A model generated the notes under the pieces. That model was not told where the DNA came from. It was given only the letters and a program-made list of their open reading frames with translations, and did no database searches. From Oleiharenicola lentus (GTDB lineage Bacteria > Verrucomicrobiota > Verrucomicrobiia > Opitutales > Opitutaceae): DNA of 64,000 bases. Of the stretch, positions 8,102 through 13,483 are shown in pieces. The stretch is from positions 1,367,693 through 1,431,692 of the forward strand of contig NZ_SDHX01000001.1 in the NCBI RefSeq assembly GCF_004118375.1, read 5' to 3'. How positions within the stretch are numbered: the stretch's first letter is position 1; the number at the start of each line of letters is the position of its first letter. A program made the translations under genes and the position numbers.

Positions 8102-8508
8102 GGGGTGCTGTGACCCTTGGGTCGGACGGCGGTTCCGGCAACACATTAGGCCGTCGGAATCCAATTCCACGGAGGGATTGGCCACATCCTGTTGCGGCGC
8201 TCTCGCCGCCCAGGACCAGTCGCCCTGCCGACGCAGTGGCTGGAAGCACAAAAGACGCAAAACTGAGGAAGGTAGTCATTCTGCGAGCCAGGACCAAACC
8301 GAAGCCTGTTTGGGTGGGACCACCAATAAACATCCTTACCGTCATCCTGAGCCGTGCGGAGGATCCAGGAGCGCAACCGCCTGCGGCCATCATGCTGGAT
8401 CCTTCACTTCGTTCAGGATGACAATAGGGAGATTTTGGAGAGGACCTGGGAAGACAACCGGCGTGGTTCAGGTTGACCCGCTGGGGGCGGGCCGGCCTGC
8501 TTGGCGCC
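8102..8508. other. 407-bp gene-poor intergenic stretch
   Basis: This separates the divergent secreted-protein gene (start 8101) and the DTW-domain gene (start 8509). The only organised element seen is the 82-bp inverted repeat at 8341-8422. No convincing open frame or promoter consensus was identified in the rest. Confidence 0.5.
8341..8422. repeat. 82-bp GTCATCCTGAGC inverted repeat, copy 1
   Basis: Starts GTCATCCTGAGC and ends CAGGATGAC; inner arms AGGATCCAG and CTGGATCCT are perfect complements. The element is 82 bp, the same length as the copy at 35501-35582. The terminal sequence is that of a repeat type widely scattered in bacterial genomes and resembles a non-coding mobile element. 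No transposase is adjacent. Confidence 0.75.
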
Positions 8509-9177
8509 ATGGCCCGGAGCCTGATCACCAACCATACCTCGCGGTGCGAACGCTGCCGTTTCGCACCGCGCTGGTGCATCTGCGCGGCGCACACGGAGAT
8601 CGCGAGCCCGCTGGTGGTGGACGTGCTGATCCACCAGCGCGAGCTCTGGCGCCCCACCAGCACCGGGCGGCTGGTGAACCGCGTGCTGGCGGGTTCACGG
8701 CAGCATGTGTTCCACCGCGAAAAACCGCCCCCGCGCGAGGAGATCGCCCGGCCCGGCCGTGAGCTGTGGATCCTGCACCCGCGCGGCGAGGCCGTGCCGA
8801 CCGGGGCCGATCTTTCGCAGGTGCAGGTGCTGCTGCTCGACGGCAGCTGGGGCGAGGCCGCGCGCATGTCGTCGCACGTCGCGGGGTGGGGCCGGCTCAT
8901 CTGCCTGCCCGACGCCGGCGAGAGCCGCAGCAGCCTGCGTCGCCAGGAACAGTCGGGCAAATACGCCACCGCCGAGGCACTTTTGTTCCTCCTCGCCGCC
9001 CTTGGCCTGACCGAGGTCGAGCGCCAGCTGCGCCTGCAGTTTGAACTCCACGTCTATGCCGGCCTCCGCACCCGCGGCGCTGTGGTCCAGGCCGAGGAAT
9101 TTCTCGTTGCGTCGCCCATCAAGGAAGCCTTCCCCGACCTGCTCACCGAACTACATAGGCGGCGGCCGTTGGTTTGA
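8509..9177 (+). CDS. DTW-domain protein, probable tRNA-uridine aminocarboxypropyltransferase
   Basis: A 222-residue protein of the DTW family (TapT/YfiP, TuaA). These enzymes transfer the 3-amino-3-carboxypropyl group of SAM to a uridine in tRNA, giving acp3U. The N-terminal Cys cluster CERCRFAPRWCIC is the family's zinc-binding motif. VLLLDGSWGEAARM carries the DxTW-like signature, here as DGSW, and SGKYATAEA is also conserved. The ATG at 8509 is chosen although an in-frame TTG lies at 8473; neither has a strong ribosome site. The stop is followed at once by the attC-like region, so this gene is the last normal-composition gene before the array. Confidence 0.85.
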   Translation: MARSLITNHTSRCERCRFAPRWCICAAHTEIASPLVVDVLIHQRELWRPTSTGRLVNRVLAGSRQHVFHREKPPPREEIARPGRELWILHPRGEAVPTGADLSQVQVLLLDGSWGEAARMSSHVAGWGRLICLPDAGESRSSLRRQEQSGKYATAEALLFLLAALGLTEVERQLRLQFELHVYAGLRTRGAVVQAEEFLVASPIKEAFPDLLTELHRRRPLV

Positions 9178-9202
9178 GTTCCGCTTTGGTCCGGTAAAAT
9201 GC

Positions 9203-9209
9203 GTTGGGC
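9203..9209 (+). other. isolated GTTRRRY-type core box
   Basis: GTTGGGC fits the integron attC right-core consensus GTTRRRY. It follows 'gagttccgct' by about 18 bases, the same spacing and sequence seen before the stronger site at 9318-9324. Alone the 7-mer is expected by chance about once per kilobase, so this is only supportive. Confidence 0.3.
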
Positions 9210-9271
9210 AAAACCGGAATCCGTCAAAACCAAGCATTGCGCGGCAAGCCTTTGTGTCTTTGCTCGCGGAA

Positions 9272-9324
9272 AACCAACCCTGAATGTTATGCGGAACTGA
9301 GTTCCGCTGAATATACTGTTAGGC
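9272..9324 (+). other. attC-like recombination site 0 (upstream of P-loop cassette)
   Basis: A 53-bp imperfect palindrome. The left core is AACCAAC (one mismatch to RYYYAAC), the centre is a perfect hairpin GCGGAAC-tga-GTTCCGC, and the right core GTTAGGC at 9318-9324 matches the canonical GTTRRRY exactly. The next gene's ATG follows only five A residues later, the usual layout of an integron cassette start. Confidence 0.5.
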
Positions 9325-9329
9325 AAAAA

Positions 9330-9860
9330 ATGACGCGCATCGCAGTTATCGGTAATGCGGGTGGCGGAAAGTCGACGCTCTCTCGAAGACTTCGCGACGC
9401 GCTGCGGTTGCCGCTTCATCCGGTTGATCAGCTCCAGTGGCGTCCGGGATGGAAGCGCGTGGCGGCAGAAGAGTTCGCGACGGTGCATGCGAAGCTTGTT
9501 TCAGAGCCGCGTTGGATCATCGACGGCTGGGGCGAGTTCGACGCGATTGAAGCAAGGTTTCGTCGCTGCGATACCGTTGTGCTCATCGATTTTCCTCTTT
9601 GGCGGCATTATTGGTGGGCGCTGAAGCGTCAGTTCATGTGTCTGTTTCGCCCACGAATTGACGGACCGTCCGGTTGTCCGATGCTTCCGATGACTTGGCC
9701 GCTTATGAAGATGCTTTGGTTGATTGATCGAGATGCGATGCCGCGCTTGCGTGCCCTGGTTGATGCGCAGCGTGAATCGAGGCGAGTGATCGTGATTCGC
9801 TCACTTGCCGAGCTGCGGCAGTTTAACCGCGAAGTCGACGCCCATGCCAAAACAGCCTAA
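9330..9860 (+). CDS. P-loop NTPase, topology-modulation/adenylate-kinase-like, first cassette gene
   Basis: A 176-residue nucleotide-binding protein. The Walker A motif GNAGGGKST is at residues 8-16, HPVDQLQWRPGW is the substrate-side segment of FlaR/topology-modulation-type kinases, and VVLIDFPLW is the second strand. The family is related to adenylate and shikimate kinases but its natural substrate is not established. The ATG at 9330 sits five bases after the GTTAGGC core, and the stop codon TAA lies inside GCCTAAC at 9855-9861. Gene ends overlapping the left core of attC are typical of integron cassettes. Base composition is visibly less GC-rich than in the flanking genes. No obvious promoter or Shine-Dalgarno sequence precedes it. 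Confidence 0.8.
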   Translation: MTRIAVIGNAGGGKSTLSRRLRDALRLPLHPVDQLQWRPGWKRVAAEEFATVHAKLVSEPRWIIDGWGEFDAIEARFRRCDTVVLIDFPLWRHYWWALKRQFMCLFRPRIDGPSGCPMLPMTWPLMKMLWLIDRDAMPRLRALVDAQRESRRVIVIRSLAELRQFNREVDAHAKTA

Positions 9861-9953
9861 CCAGTCGCCAGAGCCAACGGCACTCGCTGTCACGCCTCGT
9901 GCTTGCGCACGAGTCGCGCCATCGAGCGCCGTGGCTCATCTTTAACGATCGGC
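9855..9953 (+). other. attC-like recombination site 1
   Basis: 99 bp from GCCTAAC (9855-9861, canonical RYYYAAC, containing the preceding stop codon) to GATCGGC (9947-9953). Inner arms AGCCAACGGC and GCCGTGGCT pair with one unpaired base, like the extrahelical bases of attC. The centre is a CTCGTG/CACGAG hairpin. The right core departs from GTTRRRY at two positions, so recognition by a standard IntI is uncertain. Confidence 0.5.
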
Positions 9954-9962
9954 GAAGAAAAG

Positions 9963-10394
9963 ATGAAGAAAAGCGCAGTCATCGGTCCCTCGGCAATCAT
10001 GGTGGCTACGACCGCTACTGCCATCGTCATCTCGACTATTACGCCGACCGATCCTCATTACGGTGTTTGGCCGAAGATCATGGCGGCTGCATTCTGGAGT
10101 GCTCTCGGACTCATCCCCGCTGCGATCTGGATTGGCATAGCGAATTTCAAACACCCGCTGGCAAAAGGATTATTGCTGCTTCAAGCAATCGCTCTTTTGG
10201 GATTCCTTACCCTCAACCTCGGTATAGGTGGATTTGGATTCCAGGCCCTTTCATTCGTCTTTCTCGCCGTATGCATGGTCGTCGGTCTTCCCTTCATTCT
10301 AGTCCTCCTCTACCGCGGACACTGTGGTTCGCACGGCGCTACTGCGAGAGAGCCGATCCAGTCGCCAGTGCCAACGCGCGGGAATGGAACGTGA
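9963..10394 (+). CDS. small four-helix membrane protein, second cassette gene
   Basis: A 143-residue protein with about four predicted membrane helices (residues near 10-28, 39-60, 68-88 and 92-117) and a short polar C-terminus. The helices are rich in Ile, Leu, Gly and Ala, and no catalytic motif is visible. No family is recognised. The ATG at 9963 follows the GATCGGC core by nine bases, and an AAGAAAAG stretch before it could serve as ribosome site. The last 14 or so codons (about 10352-10394) lie within the next attC-like palindrome, so the C-terminal tail EPIQSPVP is encoded by the recombination-site-like sequence. It may be a true tail or a late addition. Confidence 0.65.
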   Translation: MKKSAVIGPSAIMVATTATAIVISTITPTDPHYGVWPKIMAAAFWSALGLIPAAIWIGIANFKHPLAKGLLLLQAIALLGFLTLNLGIGGFGFQALSFVFLAVCMVVGLPFILVLLYRGHCGSHGATAREPIQSPVPTRGNGT

Positions 10395-10485
10395 TTCGCA
10401 TGGGCCTCCTCCGCTCCACATATGCAGTAATTCAGAAGGGTTCACTCTCCGCTCGCCCGCGCGCGGCACATCTCTAACGATCGGC
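10352..10485 (+). other. attC-like recombination site 2
   Basis: 134 bp bounded by GCCGATC (10352-10358) and its exact reverse complement GATCGGC (10479-10485). Inner arms TGCCAACGCGCGGG and CCCGCGCGCGGCA pair almost fully. The ten bases after the left core (cagtcgccag) are identical to those of site 1, and the right flank (taacgatcggcg) is likewise shared. Confidence 0.5.
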
Positions 10486-10494
10486 GGAAGAAAG

Positions 10495-10947
10495 ATGAAG
10501 CATGCGTTGATAGTCCTTGTTTCCGTTGTCGGGCTTTTCGCGGCACTATACTTGGGCGCGAAGGTGCTCGACCCCGATTACGACAAAGAGCGCGCTGAGA
10601 TTTTGCGGGTAGCTTACTCGCATTCGGAGATCACAACCCGTGTCGGAAGTGTCCGGACCGCGTCGTTTACCACTCAGAAGAAAGAGGGCCTGGCCGTGCT
10701 GGCTCGCTTTTTCCGTGACGACTGGACGCGCGTCCGCAGCCAAGGTGCCACGAAAGGCAGTGCCCGACTGTTCATCCTCGGTTCCAAAGAAGGCGGGTTC
10801 TTCGTGATTCACTATACCTACACCGAGAAGAATGGTCAGTTCACGCTGGATTCAGTGGACACATCGGCGTTCGATTCGCCTCAAGAACGCCGATCTCTGA
10901 GCCGGCACAGCCAACTCTGGGCAGCTGCCGCTGCCCTCCGTGGCTGA
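10495..10947 (+). CDS. small N-anchored protein, third cassette gene
   Basis: A 150-residue protein with a single N-terminal hydrophobic helix (about residues 4-23, a signal anchor or uncleaved signal peptide) and a mixed alpha/beta soluble region with alternating strands (SARLFILG, GFFVIHYTY). It is likely to face the periplasm. No family is recognised. The ATG at 10495 lies nine bases after the GATCGGC core in the same AAGAAAG context as the previous gene. The 3' end from about 10889 is superimposed on attC-like site 3: the segment for SLSRHSQLWAAAAALRG comes from that palindrome. In another frame the same DNA reads GCC GAT CTC TGA, exactly the end of the fourth cassette gene, so a frameshift may have extended this protein. 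Confidence 0.6.
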   Translation: MKHALIVLVSVVGLFAALYLGAKVLDPDYDKERAEILRVAYSHSEITTRVGSVRTASFTTQKKEGLAVLARFFRDDWTRVRSQGATKGSARLFILGSKEGGFFVIHYTYTEKNGQFTLDSVDTSAFDSPQERRSLSRHSQLWAAAAALRG

Positions 10948-10962
10948 CCTCAATCAATCGGC
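10889..10962 (+). other. attC-like recombination site 3, embedded in the third gene's 3' end
   Basis: 74 bp from GCCGATC (10889-10895) to AATCGGC (10956-10962). The centre is a perfect GGGCAGC-tgcc-GCTGCCC hairpin, flanked by AGCCAAC and GTGGCT with one unpaired base, the same asymmetry as in site 1. The first 14 bases, GCCGATCTCTGAGC, recur exactly at site 4. Confidence 0.5.
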
Positions 10963-10970
10963 CAAGAACC

Positions 10971-11318
10971 ATGAGCGATAGCGACTACATCGGCGAGGGT
11001 GAGATTGACTACGCGAAAGTCATGGCCCGCGGAGGGGCCAACTGCGGTGACGAAGATTTTGCTGTGTTTGCGTGCCCGTTTTGTCGCCATGTCTACCTGC
11101 TGGAGTATGAAGTCGACACAGCCTACCTGGATGCGAGCGACCTGAAGAAGAGAGTGTCGGTGTTCAATACGTGCTTTTCCTGCGTATCGTGCGGCATAGA
11201 GATTCCTAGCGACACGGCATGGGTTGGCCCTCGCGCCCCAGAAAAGTTCAAAGTTCTTCGAGAAGAAATGTCGCGATCAGGTTGGCGATGGATTCTTAAG
11301 GAGGAGGCCGATCTCTGA
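10971..11318 (+). CDS. small zinc-ribbon-like protein, fourth cassette gene
   Basis: A 115-residue soluble protein with two Cys pairs, CPFC near residue 34 and CFSCVSC near residue 71, spaced as in a zinc ribbon. An acidic N-terminus precedes them, and a C-terminal Trp/Lys-rich helix carries the WRWILKE pattern. No catalytic motif or named family is recognised. The ATG is eight bases after the AATCGGC core. The stop codon TGA lies in GCCGATCTCTGAGC, immediately overlapping the left core of site 4, in the way integron cassette genes typically end. Composition is less GC-rich than the OPT gene downstream. Confidence 0.7.
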   Translation: MSDSDYIGEGEIDYAKVMARGGANCGDEDFAVFACPFCRHVYLLEYEVDTAYLDASDLKKRVSVFNTCFSCVSCGIEIPSDTAWVGPRAPEKFKVLREEMSRSGWRWILKEEADL

Positions 11319-11361
11319 GCGTTCTGCTGCGCCGTAGCGCGCAGCAGAACGCCGGTTGAAC
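11307..11361 (+). other. attC-like recombination site 4
   Basis: 55 bp from GCCGATC (11307-11313) to GTTGAAC (11355-11361). The right core matches GTTRRRY exactly. Between them lies a perfect 14-bp stem, GCGTTCTGCTGCGC with its complement, loop cgtagc. Length and geometry match short attC sites well. Confidence 0.55.
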
Positions 11362-11638
11362 AAGCCCCGCCTTCTCTGAAGCTACGGCGCGGCGAGCCGT
11401 AGTAGGTTTGGGAACACTGATACGCTTTGTGTTGGGCACGCGGTGGCGGCGGACGGAACGAGTAGGATGGATGACGACTGCCGCGGGAGATCGTGCAGCC
11501 CGCCTTTACGCAGTTCAGGATCCAGTGCCCTGGGGCGCTGTTCGCTGAAACTTTTATGACTGGCGGCATCTAAGGCTTGTTCACCGGAGCGCTGTGTCAT
11601 AACGGTTGGGTGGCACCGTCCTTCTTCATCCCCATCGC
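11362..11638. other. non-coding tail of the cassette-like region
   Basis: Contains a CTACGGC-gcggcga-GCCGTAG hairpin and two further boxes fitting GTTRRRY: GTTGGGC at 11431-11437 and GTTGGGT at 11605-11611. The latter is 28 bp before the OPT transporter ATG and may be the distal end of the array. No credible gene was found here. Confidence 0.4.
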
Positions 11639-13483
11639 ATGTCCGCCCCCTCCGTTCCTCCCGCTGTGTCCAACCCGACAGTTCCTGCTCACGAGCGCGA
11701 GGCCGACTGGCTGAAGAACATCTACCGGCCCCACGAGGCCAACCTCACGGTGCGCGCGGTGGTCGTCGGCATGCTCATCGGGGCGGCGATGTGCCTCTCG
11801 AACATCTACGTCTTCTTCAAGACGGGCTGGAGTCTCGGCGTGACGCTGACGGCGTGCATCCTCGCCTTCGGCTCGTTCCAGTTCCTGCAGGCGCTGCGGA
11901 TCGTGAAGAAGCCGCTCGGCGTGCTGGAGAACAACGCGCTGACCACGGTAGCCTCGGGCGCGGGTTTCATGACGGGCGGAGGCAACATGGCGGCCTTTGG
12001 CGCGCTGTTCATGATCACCACGGTGCGGCCCGATTCCACAGCGATGATCGTGTGGTTCGGCGTCATCGCGGCGCTGGGTGTGTTTGCGGCCATCCCGATC
12101 AAGCGCCAGCTCATCAACCATGAGGGCCTCGCGTTCCCCACGGGCACGGCGACGGCGGAGACCATCCGCTCGATCCACGACGCCGCGGCGGGCGGCGGCA
12201 AGGGCAAGGCTGCGTGGCTCGCCGGGTCGGCGGGCGTGGCGGCGGTGCTGACGTGGCTGCGTGACGCATGGCACTGGATTCCCGGCACCTTCGGCCTGCC
12301 GGTCAGCCTGGCCGGGCACACGCTGGCGCAATGGACGCTCTCGCTGAAGGCCGAGGTCGTGTTGCTTGGCGGCGGCGCGCTCATGAGTTTCCGCACGGGC
12401 TGGTCTTTGCTGCTCGGCGGCATCCTGACCTACGCCGTGCTGGCGCCCGCGCTCGTGGCGCAGGGGATCGTCACCACCGTCAGCTACAAGGCCATCGTGG
12501 CGTGGACGCTCTGGCCGGGCGCGGCGATTTTGGTCGCGTCGGGGCTCACGTCGTTCGCGCTGGATTACAAGAGCATCGCCCGCTCGTTCTCCGGGCTCGG
12601 TCGGATTTTTGGTCGCAAGGGCGCGCAACCCGCCGAGAGCGGGATCGAGGCGGTGGAGTGTCCGGAGTGGTGGTTCCCCGTCGGCTTTCTCGTGCTCGCG
12701 CCGGTGGTCACCGGCCTGATGGTCTGGCTGTTTCAGATTCCTCTCTGGGCCGGATTGGTCGCCGTGCCGCTGGCGGTCGTGATGGGTTTCGTGGCCGCGC
12801 GCGTGACCGGCGAGACCGATGTCACGCCGACCAAGGCGCTGGGCCCGGTTACGCAGATGATCTACGGTATCATCACGCCCGGCAACGTAGCCGGAAACAT
12901 CATGTCCGCCAACGTCACGGGTGGCGTCGGCCTGCATGCCGCAGACCTGCTGACGACGCTCAAGACCGGCTGGCTGCTCGGCGCCAAGCCCCGGCACCAG
13001 CTTTACGCGCAGCTCTTCGGCGTGATGGCCGGAGCGGCGATCGTGGTGCCGGCCTTCAACATCATTTTGCCCGATCCCAGCGTGCTGGGTGGCGAGGCCT
13101 GGCCGGCGCCATCGTGCGTGGTGTGGGCCGGCGTGTCGCAGGCTTTCTCAGGCGGCATCGCGGCGCTGCATCCGTCGTCCAAGACCGCCATCGTGGTCGG
13201 GCTCATTCTCGGCGTGGCGCTCTCGCTGTTCGAGAAGTTCGCGCCGCGCAAACTCCGTCCCCTGCTGCCCTCGGCCTCGGGCCTCGGCATCGCCATGGTC
13301 ATCCCGGGCAGCAACTGCATCGCCATGTTCCTCGGGTCGGCCGTTGCGGAATGGATGCGCCGGAAGTGGCCCGCGGTTGCGGACAAACTGGTCGTGCCCG
13401 TGGCTTCGGGCCTCATCGCCGGCGAGAGCCTGATGGGCATCCTCATCGCGTTTTTGATCGTGTCCGGGGTGATCGCGGGTTGA
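11639..13483 (+). CDS. OPT-family oligopeptide transporter
   Basis: A 614-residue integral membrane protein of the OPT family, with about 14-16 hydrophobic segments. These proton-coupled carriers take up small peptides or metal chelates. Family features include the first helices (VGMLIGAAMCLSNIYVFFKTGW), an ENNALTTVASGAGF segment and the conserved loop GLAFPTGTATAETI. The ATG at 11639 is chosen because it begins the short polar N-terminus before NIYRPHEANLTVRA, which is conserved; an upstream in-frame start has no support. The gene begins just after the cassette-like region and returns to the high GC content of the genome. No partner gene is adjacent. Confidence 0.92.
   Translation: MSAPSVPPAVSNPTVPAHEREADWLKNIYRPHEANLTVRAVVVGMLIGAAMCLSNIYVFFKTGWSLGVTLTACILAFGSFQFLQALRIVKKPLGVLENNALTTVASGAGFMTGGGNMAAFGALFMITTVRPDSTAMIVWFGVIAALGVFAAIPIKRQLINHEGLAFPTGTATAETIRSIHDAAAGGGKGKAAWLAGSAGVAAVLTWLRDAWHWIPGTFGLPVSLAGHTLAQWTLSLKAEVVLLGGGALMSFRTGWSLLLGGILTYAVLAPALVAQGIVTTVSYKAIVAWTLWPGAAILVASGLTSFALDYKSIARSFSGLGRIFGRKGAQPAESGIEAVECPEWWFPVGFLVLAPVVTGLMVWLFQIPLWAGLVAVPLAVVMGFVAARVTGETDVTPTKALGPVTQMIYGIITPGNVAGNIMSANVTGGVGLHAADLLTTLKTGWLLGAKPRHQLYAQLFGVMAGAAIVVPAFNIILPDPSVLGGEAWPAPSCVVWAGVSQAFSGGIAALHPSSKTAIVVGLILGVALSLFEKFAPRKLRPLLPSASGLGIAMVIPGSNCIAMFLGSAVAEWMRRKWPAVADKLVVPVASGLIAGESLMGILIAFLIVSGVIAG

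Follow-up and report, generated by a model that had tools for sequence, protein, structure and literature searches.

A probable cluster of attC sites lacking an integrase, with GAT-core cassettes and an IS91-family end, in Oleiharenicola lentus

Organisation of the locus

The locus described here lies in a 64,000-nucleotide stretch (the window, C1:1367693-1431692) of the 4.71-Mb genome of the verrucomicrobium Oleiharenicola lentus (Opitutaceae), which is assembled in two contigs, and consists of an array of four small gene cassettes in the 3' end of a gene for a DTW-domain protein. Four open reading frames (ORFs) on the same strand (9330-9860, 9963-10394, 10495-10947 and 10971-11318) occupy a block with a guanine plus cytosine (GC) content of 57% (9170-11556) against 66-69% in the surroundings, as the original prediction for this DNA had described. 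We are highly confident that the locus is a cluster of attC sites lacking an integrase (CALIN), in which an attI-like site is followed by four same-orientation cassettes without intI, some of them with GAT-core variants, and in which the end of an IS91-family insertion sequence (IS) lies at cassette 4. Gene cassettes are swappable units that also spread antibiotic resistance. The features of the array are:

9166..11561, no strand: whole inserted segment, aligned to the empty site GGCGGGCGGCCATCTAAGGCTTG of genome G063 (locus L079); boundaries +/- about 6 bp; GGCGGC at either end
9291..9318, + strand: attI-like site, hairpin GCGGAACtgaGTTCCGC then TGAATATACT^G; fits the family attI consensus (hairpin + AATAACACT^G)
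9319..9947, + strand: cassette 1, P-loop NTPase, 176 aa; core GTTAGGC / R'' GCCTAAC; follows the own-core rule (see below)
9855..9953, + strand: attC1, R'' GCCTAAC, R' GATCGGC; 58.1 bits, E 1e-14; fold z -6.1
9948..10479, + strand: cassette 2, hydrophobic membrane protein, 143 aa; core GATCGGC / R'' GCCGATC
10352..10485, + strand: attC2, R'' GCCGATC, R' GATCGGC; long variable terminal structure, 134-nt body
10480..10956, + strand: cassette 3, N-terminally anchored protein, 150 aa; core GATCGGC / R'' GCCGATC
10889..10962, + strand: attC3, R'' GCCGATC, R' AATCGGC (first base mutated); 29.0 bits, E 5e-6; fold z -3.65
10957..11313, + strand: cassette 4, zinc-ribbon-like protein, 115 aa; core ATCGGC / R'' GCCGATC (11307-11313)
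11314..11368, - strand: left (ori-side) end of an IS91-family element, TCTGAG + 14-bp hairpin + GTTGAACAAGCCC; truncated, after R'' of cassette 4, without transposase

Structure and recurrence of the attC sites

Each of the four genes had been proposed to be bounded by imperfect, attC-like palindromes. The cores quoted for them are present (GTTAGGC at 9318-9324 ahead of gene 1; GCCTAAC at 9855-9861, over the stop codon of gene 1; GATCGGC at 9947 and 10479; GCCGATC at 10352, 10889 and 11307; GTTGAAC at about 11355), with AATCGGC at 10956 in addition. The inner arms had been said to pair with one unpaired base, and the L box has an extrahelical T on the bottom strand. The palindromes are of three kinds: three are attC sites (9855, 10352 and 10889), clustered and all on one strand, but the first is the attI-like hairpin and the last an IS91-type end.

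A covariance model was built from 45 attCs of the host family, with two of the window attCs among its seeds. An extra A after the L'' box is invariant in this model, and the attC body (CAGTCG..GAGCC-A..GGCTC..) is common to family cassettes with GAT and with GTT cores. The R and L boxes of the family attCs covary, with 0 of 500 shuffles as high and sliding controls far lower. In the window the model recovered attC1 and attC3, and on the whole genome it found only four clusters, beside intI, in the window, at C1:1696.4-1697.9 kb and at C1:1002.5-1003.5 kb, the next best match having E = 2. Similar sites therefore recur beyond the window; absence of the palindromes elsewhere in the genome had been named as grounds for rejecting a cassette array. 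The exact pattern YTAACGATCGGCG, searched in the genome, gave two window copies and none other, because internal cores and spacers vary; the covariance model was therefore used. An Rfam search of the array region returned no family.

Bottom-strand folding, which had been suggested as a check, gave z-scores of -6.1 for attC1, -3.7 for attC3 and -0.4, which is not significant, for attC2. The flanking boxes of attC2 match those of attC1 at 88% (26 nt) and 85% (39 nt), and its core agrees with its own cassette.

The integrase and the intI-adjacent integron

A tblastn search with IntI over the 64-kb window found no intI. The earlier remark that no integrase was in view thus holds for the window but not for the genome, where a complete intI is present at a distance of about 570 kb. 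It encodes the single IntI of the genome above the curated cut-off (C1:1948916-1949830; 368 bits on TIGR02249, cut-off 265), it matches the V. cholerae IntI structure 2A3V with an E of 4e-73, and its catalytic RHRY residues fall in invariant columns of the IntI alignment. This protein carries a 189-aa N-terminal extension (L030 3350-4867). An extension of 115-210 aa, with the common pattern F..W...L..., ALRWFF and no Pfam match, is found in most IntI of the family.

The array adjoining this intI (L030) has five attC on the minus strand, with cores in the order GATCGGC/GCCGATC, GATCGGC/GCCGATC, GTTAGGC/GCCTAAC, GTTCGGC/GCCGAAC and GATCGGC/GCCGATC, and every R'' fits its own 5' core. Since the same GATCGGC cores stand beside a true IntI in this genome, the cassettes of the window are of the ordinary integron type, and their variant core is one that is tolerated. 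The original prediction had also raised a new cassette system with divergent cores, and the mixture of GATCGGC with GTTAGGC and GTTCGGC in the intI-bearing integron speaks against it. A separate system with its own recombinase would account for cores that differ from GTTRRRY at bases 2 and 4 and for an array without an adjoining intI, and we nevertheless consider it very improbable: GAT and GTT cores alternate beside true IntI in the host genome and several others, the attC body is common to both core types, the use of GAT does not track the IntI tree, and in five genomes GATCGGC cassettes stand directly after the attI of IntI-bearing integrons.

Two more CALINs occur in the genome, L123 (C1:1693500-1700500) with four attC and L122 (C1:1000000-1006500) with three. 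The former has an attI, GAATAACACT^GTTAGCC, without intI, and the latter a weak recombinase-like match at 364-606.

Variant cores and the own-core rule

Crossover in integrons occurs after the first base (G) of the seven-base core, and a cassette therefore has bases 2-7 of its core at its 5' end, matching the R'' at its 3' end. The 5' core and the cassette's own R'' come together only in the circle. As each cassette brings its own core halves, adjacent half-sites in the linear array often mismatch, as where GCCTAAC faces GATCGGC.

The statistics of 139 cassettes of the host family bear this out. An exact match between the 5' core and the cassette's own R'' was found in 84% of them, against 28% (maximum 39%) when cores were shuffled within arrays, and the 5' core matched the neighbouring R'' of the same linear site in only 17.5%. 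A high own-core match together with a low linear-site match is the signature of crossover after the G on circular cassettes. In the window all four cassettes (4/4) agree with their own core, cassette 4 from base 2 on. Because the own-core rule requires no fixed core, it offers a simple and powerful way to test for integron cassettes, whatever their core.

The family core can be written G^[T/A]T[A/C/G]GG[C/T], a form that allows A at base 2 and C at base 4. Base 2 is A in both halves in 16 family cassettes, and GAT is found in 21 of 166 family R' cores (about 13%). It had been claimed that GTTAGGC, GCCTAAC and GTTGAAC fit the integron consensus exactly and that GATCGGC does not. The cores of cassette 1 do fit the strict GTTRRRY / RYYYAAC, and the GATCGGC of cassettes 2-4 departs from it while fitting the GNT form, but GTTGAAC, which had been taken as the last attC site, was misread and belongs to the IS91-type end at the R'' of cassette 4.

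The attI consensus, a hairpin followed by AATAACACT^G, stands beside intI in >12 family genomes. In five of the genomes (G000, G040, G043, G046 and G049) GATCGGC comes immediately after the attI of an IntI-bearing integron. In G049, three integrons (L039, L040 and L041) have near-identical attI and first-cassette cores of GTTGGGC, GATCGGC and GTTCGGC; L039 and L040 have a 3.4-kb segment in common at 99%. As near-identical attI precede three different cores in one genome, only the G belongs to attI.

On the IntI tree, the use of GAT needs three changes and shows no clustering. Four IntI columns differ between small groups, too few to be meaningful. A chained own-core scan of 80 IntI loci of many phyla gave 15 GTT cassettes and one each with GAT, GCT and GGT, and a looser own-core scan of these loci was swamped by background. 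Given the sparse chained scan and the noisy looser one, GAT is not claimed to be confined to the host family.

Insertion site, mobility and origin

The 3' end of the left neighbouring gene is the insertion point of the array; the flanking genes are:

8473..9177, + strand: DTW-domain protein gene, left flank; Pfam DTW E 1.5e-23; array inserted at its 3' end
11639..13483, + strand: OPT oligopeptide transporter, right flank; Pfam OPT E 5.8e-76

Orthologues of the DTW gene within the genus are 53-65% identical. Relatives of the same genus have an empty site: OPT directly follows DTW in G063 (L079), where the junction aligns to both window flanks, and the two genes are adjacent in G070 and G077. 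A comparison of strains for cassette gain or loss had been suggested; among these relatives, all three have the two genes side by side, rather than the conserved synteny of the four genes that had been named as grounds for rejection. Over 120 family genomes, the gene of cassette 4 is present in two. The copy in another genus (g15; G131, L217) is 95.5% identical in DNA over 10957-11313, with homology that runs from the base following the crossover G to the last base of R''. There, cassette 4 has a normal attC. In L217 (1420-1900) it is the first cassette after an attI-like GGGCTAATTAAACT^GATCGGC, and no IntI is found in the 9.9 kb around it. The nearest relative of cassette 1 in G131 is a gene without attC; the cassette 1 protein weakly resembles PRK08118, a FlaR-like 'DNA topology modulation protein' (110 bits, under the cut-off).

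These comparisons also dispose of a conserved, immobile operon of small genes with intergenic palindromes like repetitive extragenic palindromic (REP) sequences. The genes do lie on one strand with short spacers between the ORFs and a ribosome-binding-site-like sequence ahead of every ATG, as such an operon would, but the gene of cassette 4 is missing from 118 of the 120 family genomes, cores covary with their own R'', and the empty locus in relatives refutes immobility. We give this explanation practically no credence.

The reading as a CALIN, which the original prediction had offered as one of two possibilities, is instead borne out by the attC sites, the attI-like remnant, the lack of intI in the window, the exchange of cassettes and the empty site in relatives. 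A complete integron has intI adjoining attI, and here the attI-like site stands without intI. Several observations weigh against a CALIN: attC2 is weak in the covariance model, at only 12.1 bits; two window attCs served as training sequences of that model; no relative is known for about 150 bp to the left of attI or for about 190 bp beyond the IS end on the right; and the attI-like site of the window reads AATATACTG rather than AATAACACTG. The stretch of about 125 bp that separates the DTW gene from the attI hairpin (9166-9290) has GTTGGTT at 9168 and the exact complement AACCAAC near 9280. Judging from these letters it could be an ORF-less relic cassette ('cassette 0'), with a 7/7 core match but without an attC body.

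Three routes to CALINs have been distinguished, namely off-target insertion, loss of intI and rearrangement (PMC8618304). The attI remnant favours loss of intI or rearrangement over off-target insertion, and the attI may have come in on an integron fragment whose intI had been lost by deletion or rearrangement. That intI was deleted in place, as opposed to insertion in trans at a secondary site or the arrival of a rearranged piece, seems to us somewhat less than an even prospect. The attI-like site kept at the left end fits such a deletion, since cassettes inserted in trans at a random site would come without an attI; only about 150 bp separate attI from the DTW gene, however, with no relic of intI, the relatives have neither intI nor array at this locus, and the genome holds a second attI without intI (L123). 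As to the CALIN itself, its cassettes were most likely mobilised by the family IntI, which may have acted in trans from the distant complete copy; this integrase would have to tolerate GAT cores in both partners. The array may be active at the present day.

An IS91-family end at the right border

The last palindrome (11319-11352) is a perfect 14-bp hairpin, and the sequence directly after the R'' of cassette 4 is TCTGAGCGTTCTGCTGCGCCGTAGCGCGCAGCAGAACGCCGGTTGAACAAGCCC. Ends that are 80-95% identical lie at R'' boxes in G049, G043, G001, G027, G037 and contig 2 of the host genome. Among the ends listed in family loci, 20 of 20, from six or more genomes, are preceded by an R'' box, where the pattern used for listing includes GTTGAAC[A/C]AGCCC, more than half of the 20 come from G049 and one pair is possibly one insertion in two overlapping loci. 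A more distant relative, in G013, is also preceded by an R'' box. The ends follow GAAC, CAAC, TAAC, AAAC or GATC, always inside the R'' box. The IS91 family inserts next to GAAC/CAAG without target duplication.

Full elements of about 2.57 kb, with genes for an IS91-family transposase and a Xer-like recombinase, are found in G049 (L041 1004-3569, also L039, L040 and L058; G049:C1 about 0.33, 2.47 and 2.68 Mb). The G049 transposase scores 360 bits on NF033538 (cut-off 125), matches PF04986 and PF14319, and is of the Y2 type with the IS91 zinc-binding domain. The far end of the full elements is GGCTTGGTTCAAC, behind which most copies have CAGTCG... and the remainder of an attC. With R'' before one end and the attC remainder after the other, the element therefore sits between the R'' and the spacer of an attC. 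At the window locus, an element of this family inserted right after the R'' of cassette 4, which thereby lost a working attC, and only the end of the element is left. No transposase copy of the element was found in the host genome. Two related observations are a solitary cassette-like gene in L102 (C2 about 609 kb; 1110-1565), whose left end is attI-like and whose R''-like box carries an IS91-type end, and the about 190 bp without clear relative after the IS end (11369-11561), which hold GCTTTGTGTTGGGC, partly common to other copies of the element.

The last palindrome might instead represent a genuine second family of attC sites, as it follows R'' boxes and its GTTGAAC box complements the GTTCAAC that full elements carry at their far end. 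We consider this unlikely: in the loci read its neighbour is always that one IS91 sequence, whole or in remnants, and in no case another cassette, full copies of about 2.57 kb carry the IS91 transposase and the interrupted attC resumes after their far end, and in G131 the attC of cassette 4 is normal. The IS91-family elements, as judged from their ends, apparently form a group that targets attC and has so far not been described. A bolder proposal, which we regard as speculative and rather doubtful, is that this group recognises the folded attC, inserts exactly between R'' and spacer and has half-sites in its ends (GTTGAAC on the left, GTTCAAC on the right), so that one attC would become two attC-like sites and the IS a cassette movable by IntI, while the integrons of the family would tolerate GAT x GAT against the GTT rule. 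No copy with GTTGAAC after another attC or attI, as expected of an IS moved as a cassette, was found.

Comparison with known systems

In the definition of Cury et al. (described in PMC8618304), CALINs are attC clusters that lack an integrase, and integrons are already known in Verrucomicrobiota (PMC8618304). The window array resembles them in being an attC cluster without intI, with small genes mostly of unknown function and an integrase elsewhere in the genome, but it has retained an attI-like site on the left and its cores are partly GAT for GTT. The integrons of the family share with sedentary chromosomal integrons of the Vibrio/Xanthomonas type an IntI, an attI, a one-way array, attC bodies that are alike within a genome and R'' boxes that fit their own core. 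They differ in their short arrays (3-5 attC), the attI AATAACACT^G, the core G[T/A]T[A/C/G]GG[C/T] and the N-terminal extension of about 115-210 aa in most family IntI.

The crossover triplet has been treated as nearly invariant. The GTT/AAC triplet has been called universal to attI sites (PMC4792948), and GNT has been given as the conserved motif, with cleavage at GAT mainly at secondary sites (PMC10127599). In the host family the G at base 1, the T at base 3 and the crossover after G are kept, but GAT is a normal, heritable cassette core, seen in about 13% of family R' sites, in internal cassettes and, in five genomes, next to attI. The relaxed rule of secondary sites thus extends to natural arrays, and detectors that require GTTRRRY would overlook part of the family sites. 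In the literature searched, which did not take in the key 2010 study of the triplet, GAT was not found described as a regular core of cassettes.

Mobile elements that invade attC sites are already represented by IS1111 elements and group IIC introns (PMC9229058, PMC7923331). The elements described here are like the IS1111-attC elements and group IIC-attC introns in aiming at integron attC sites; they differ in belonging to the IS91 family, with a Y2/HUH transposase and a gene for a Xer-like recombinase, and in lying exactly between R'' and spacer. If confirmed, attC-targeting IS91 elements would be a third kind of mobile element feeding on integrons, which may help to build or break cassettes, and they would bear on the open question of the origin of the cassettes' attC. 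The nearest precedent is ISShvi3, an IS91-like element that adjoins an attC in Shewanella (PMC9229058). It too is an IS91-like element beside an attC, but it is a single case, whereas here all of the 20 listed ends, from six or more genomes, lie on R'' boxes.

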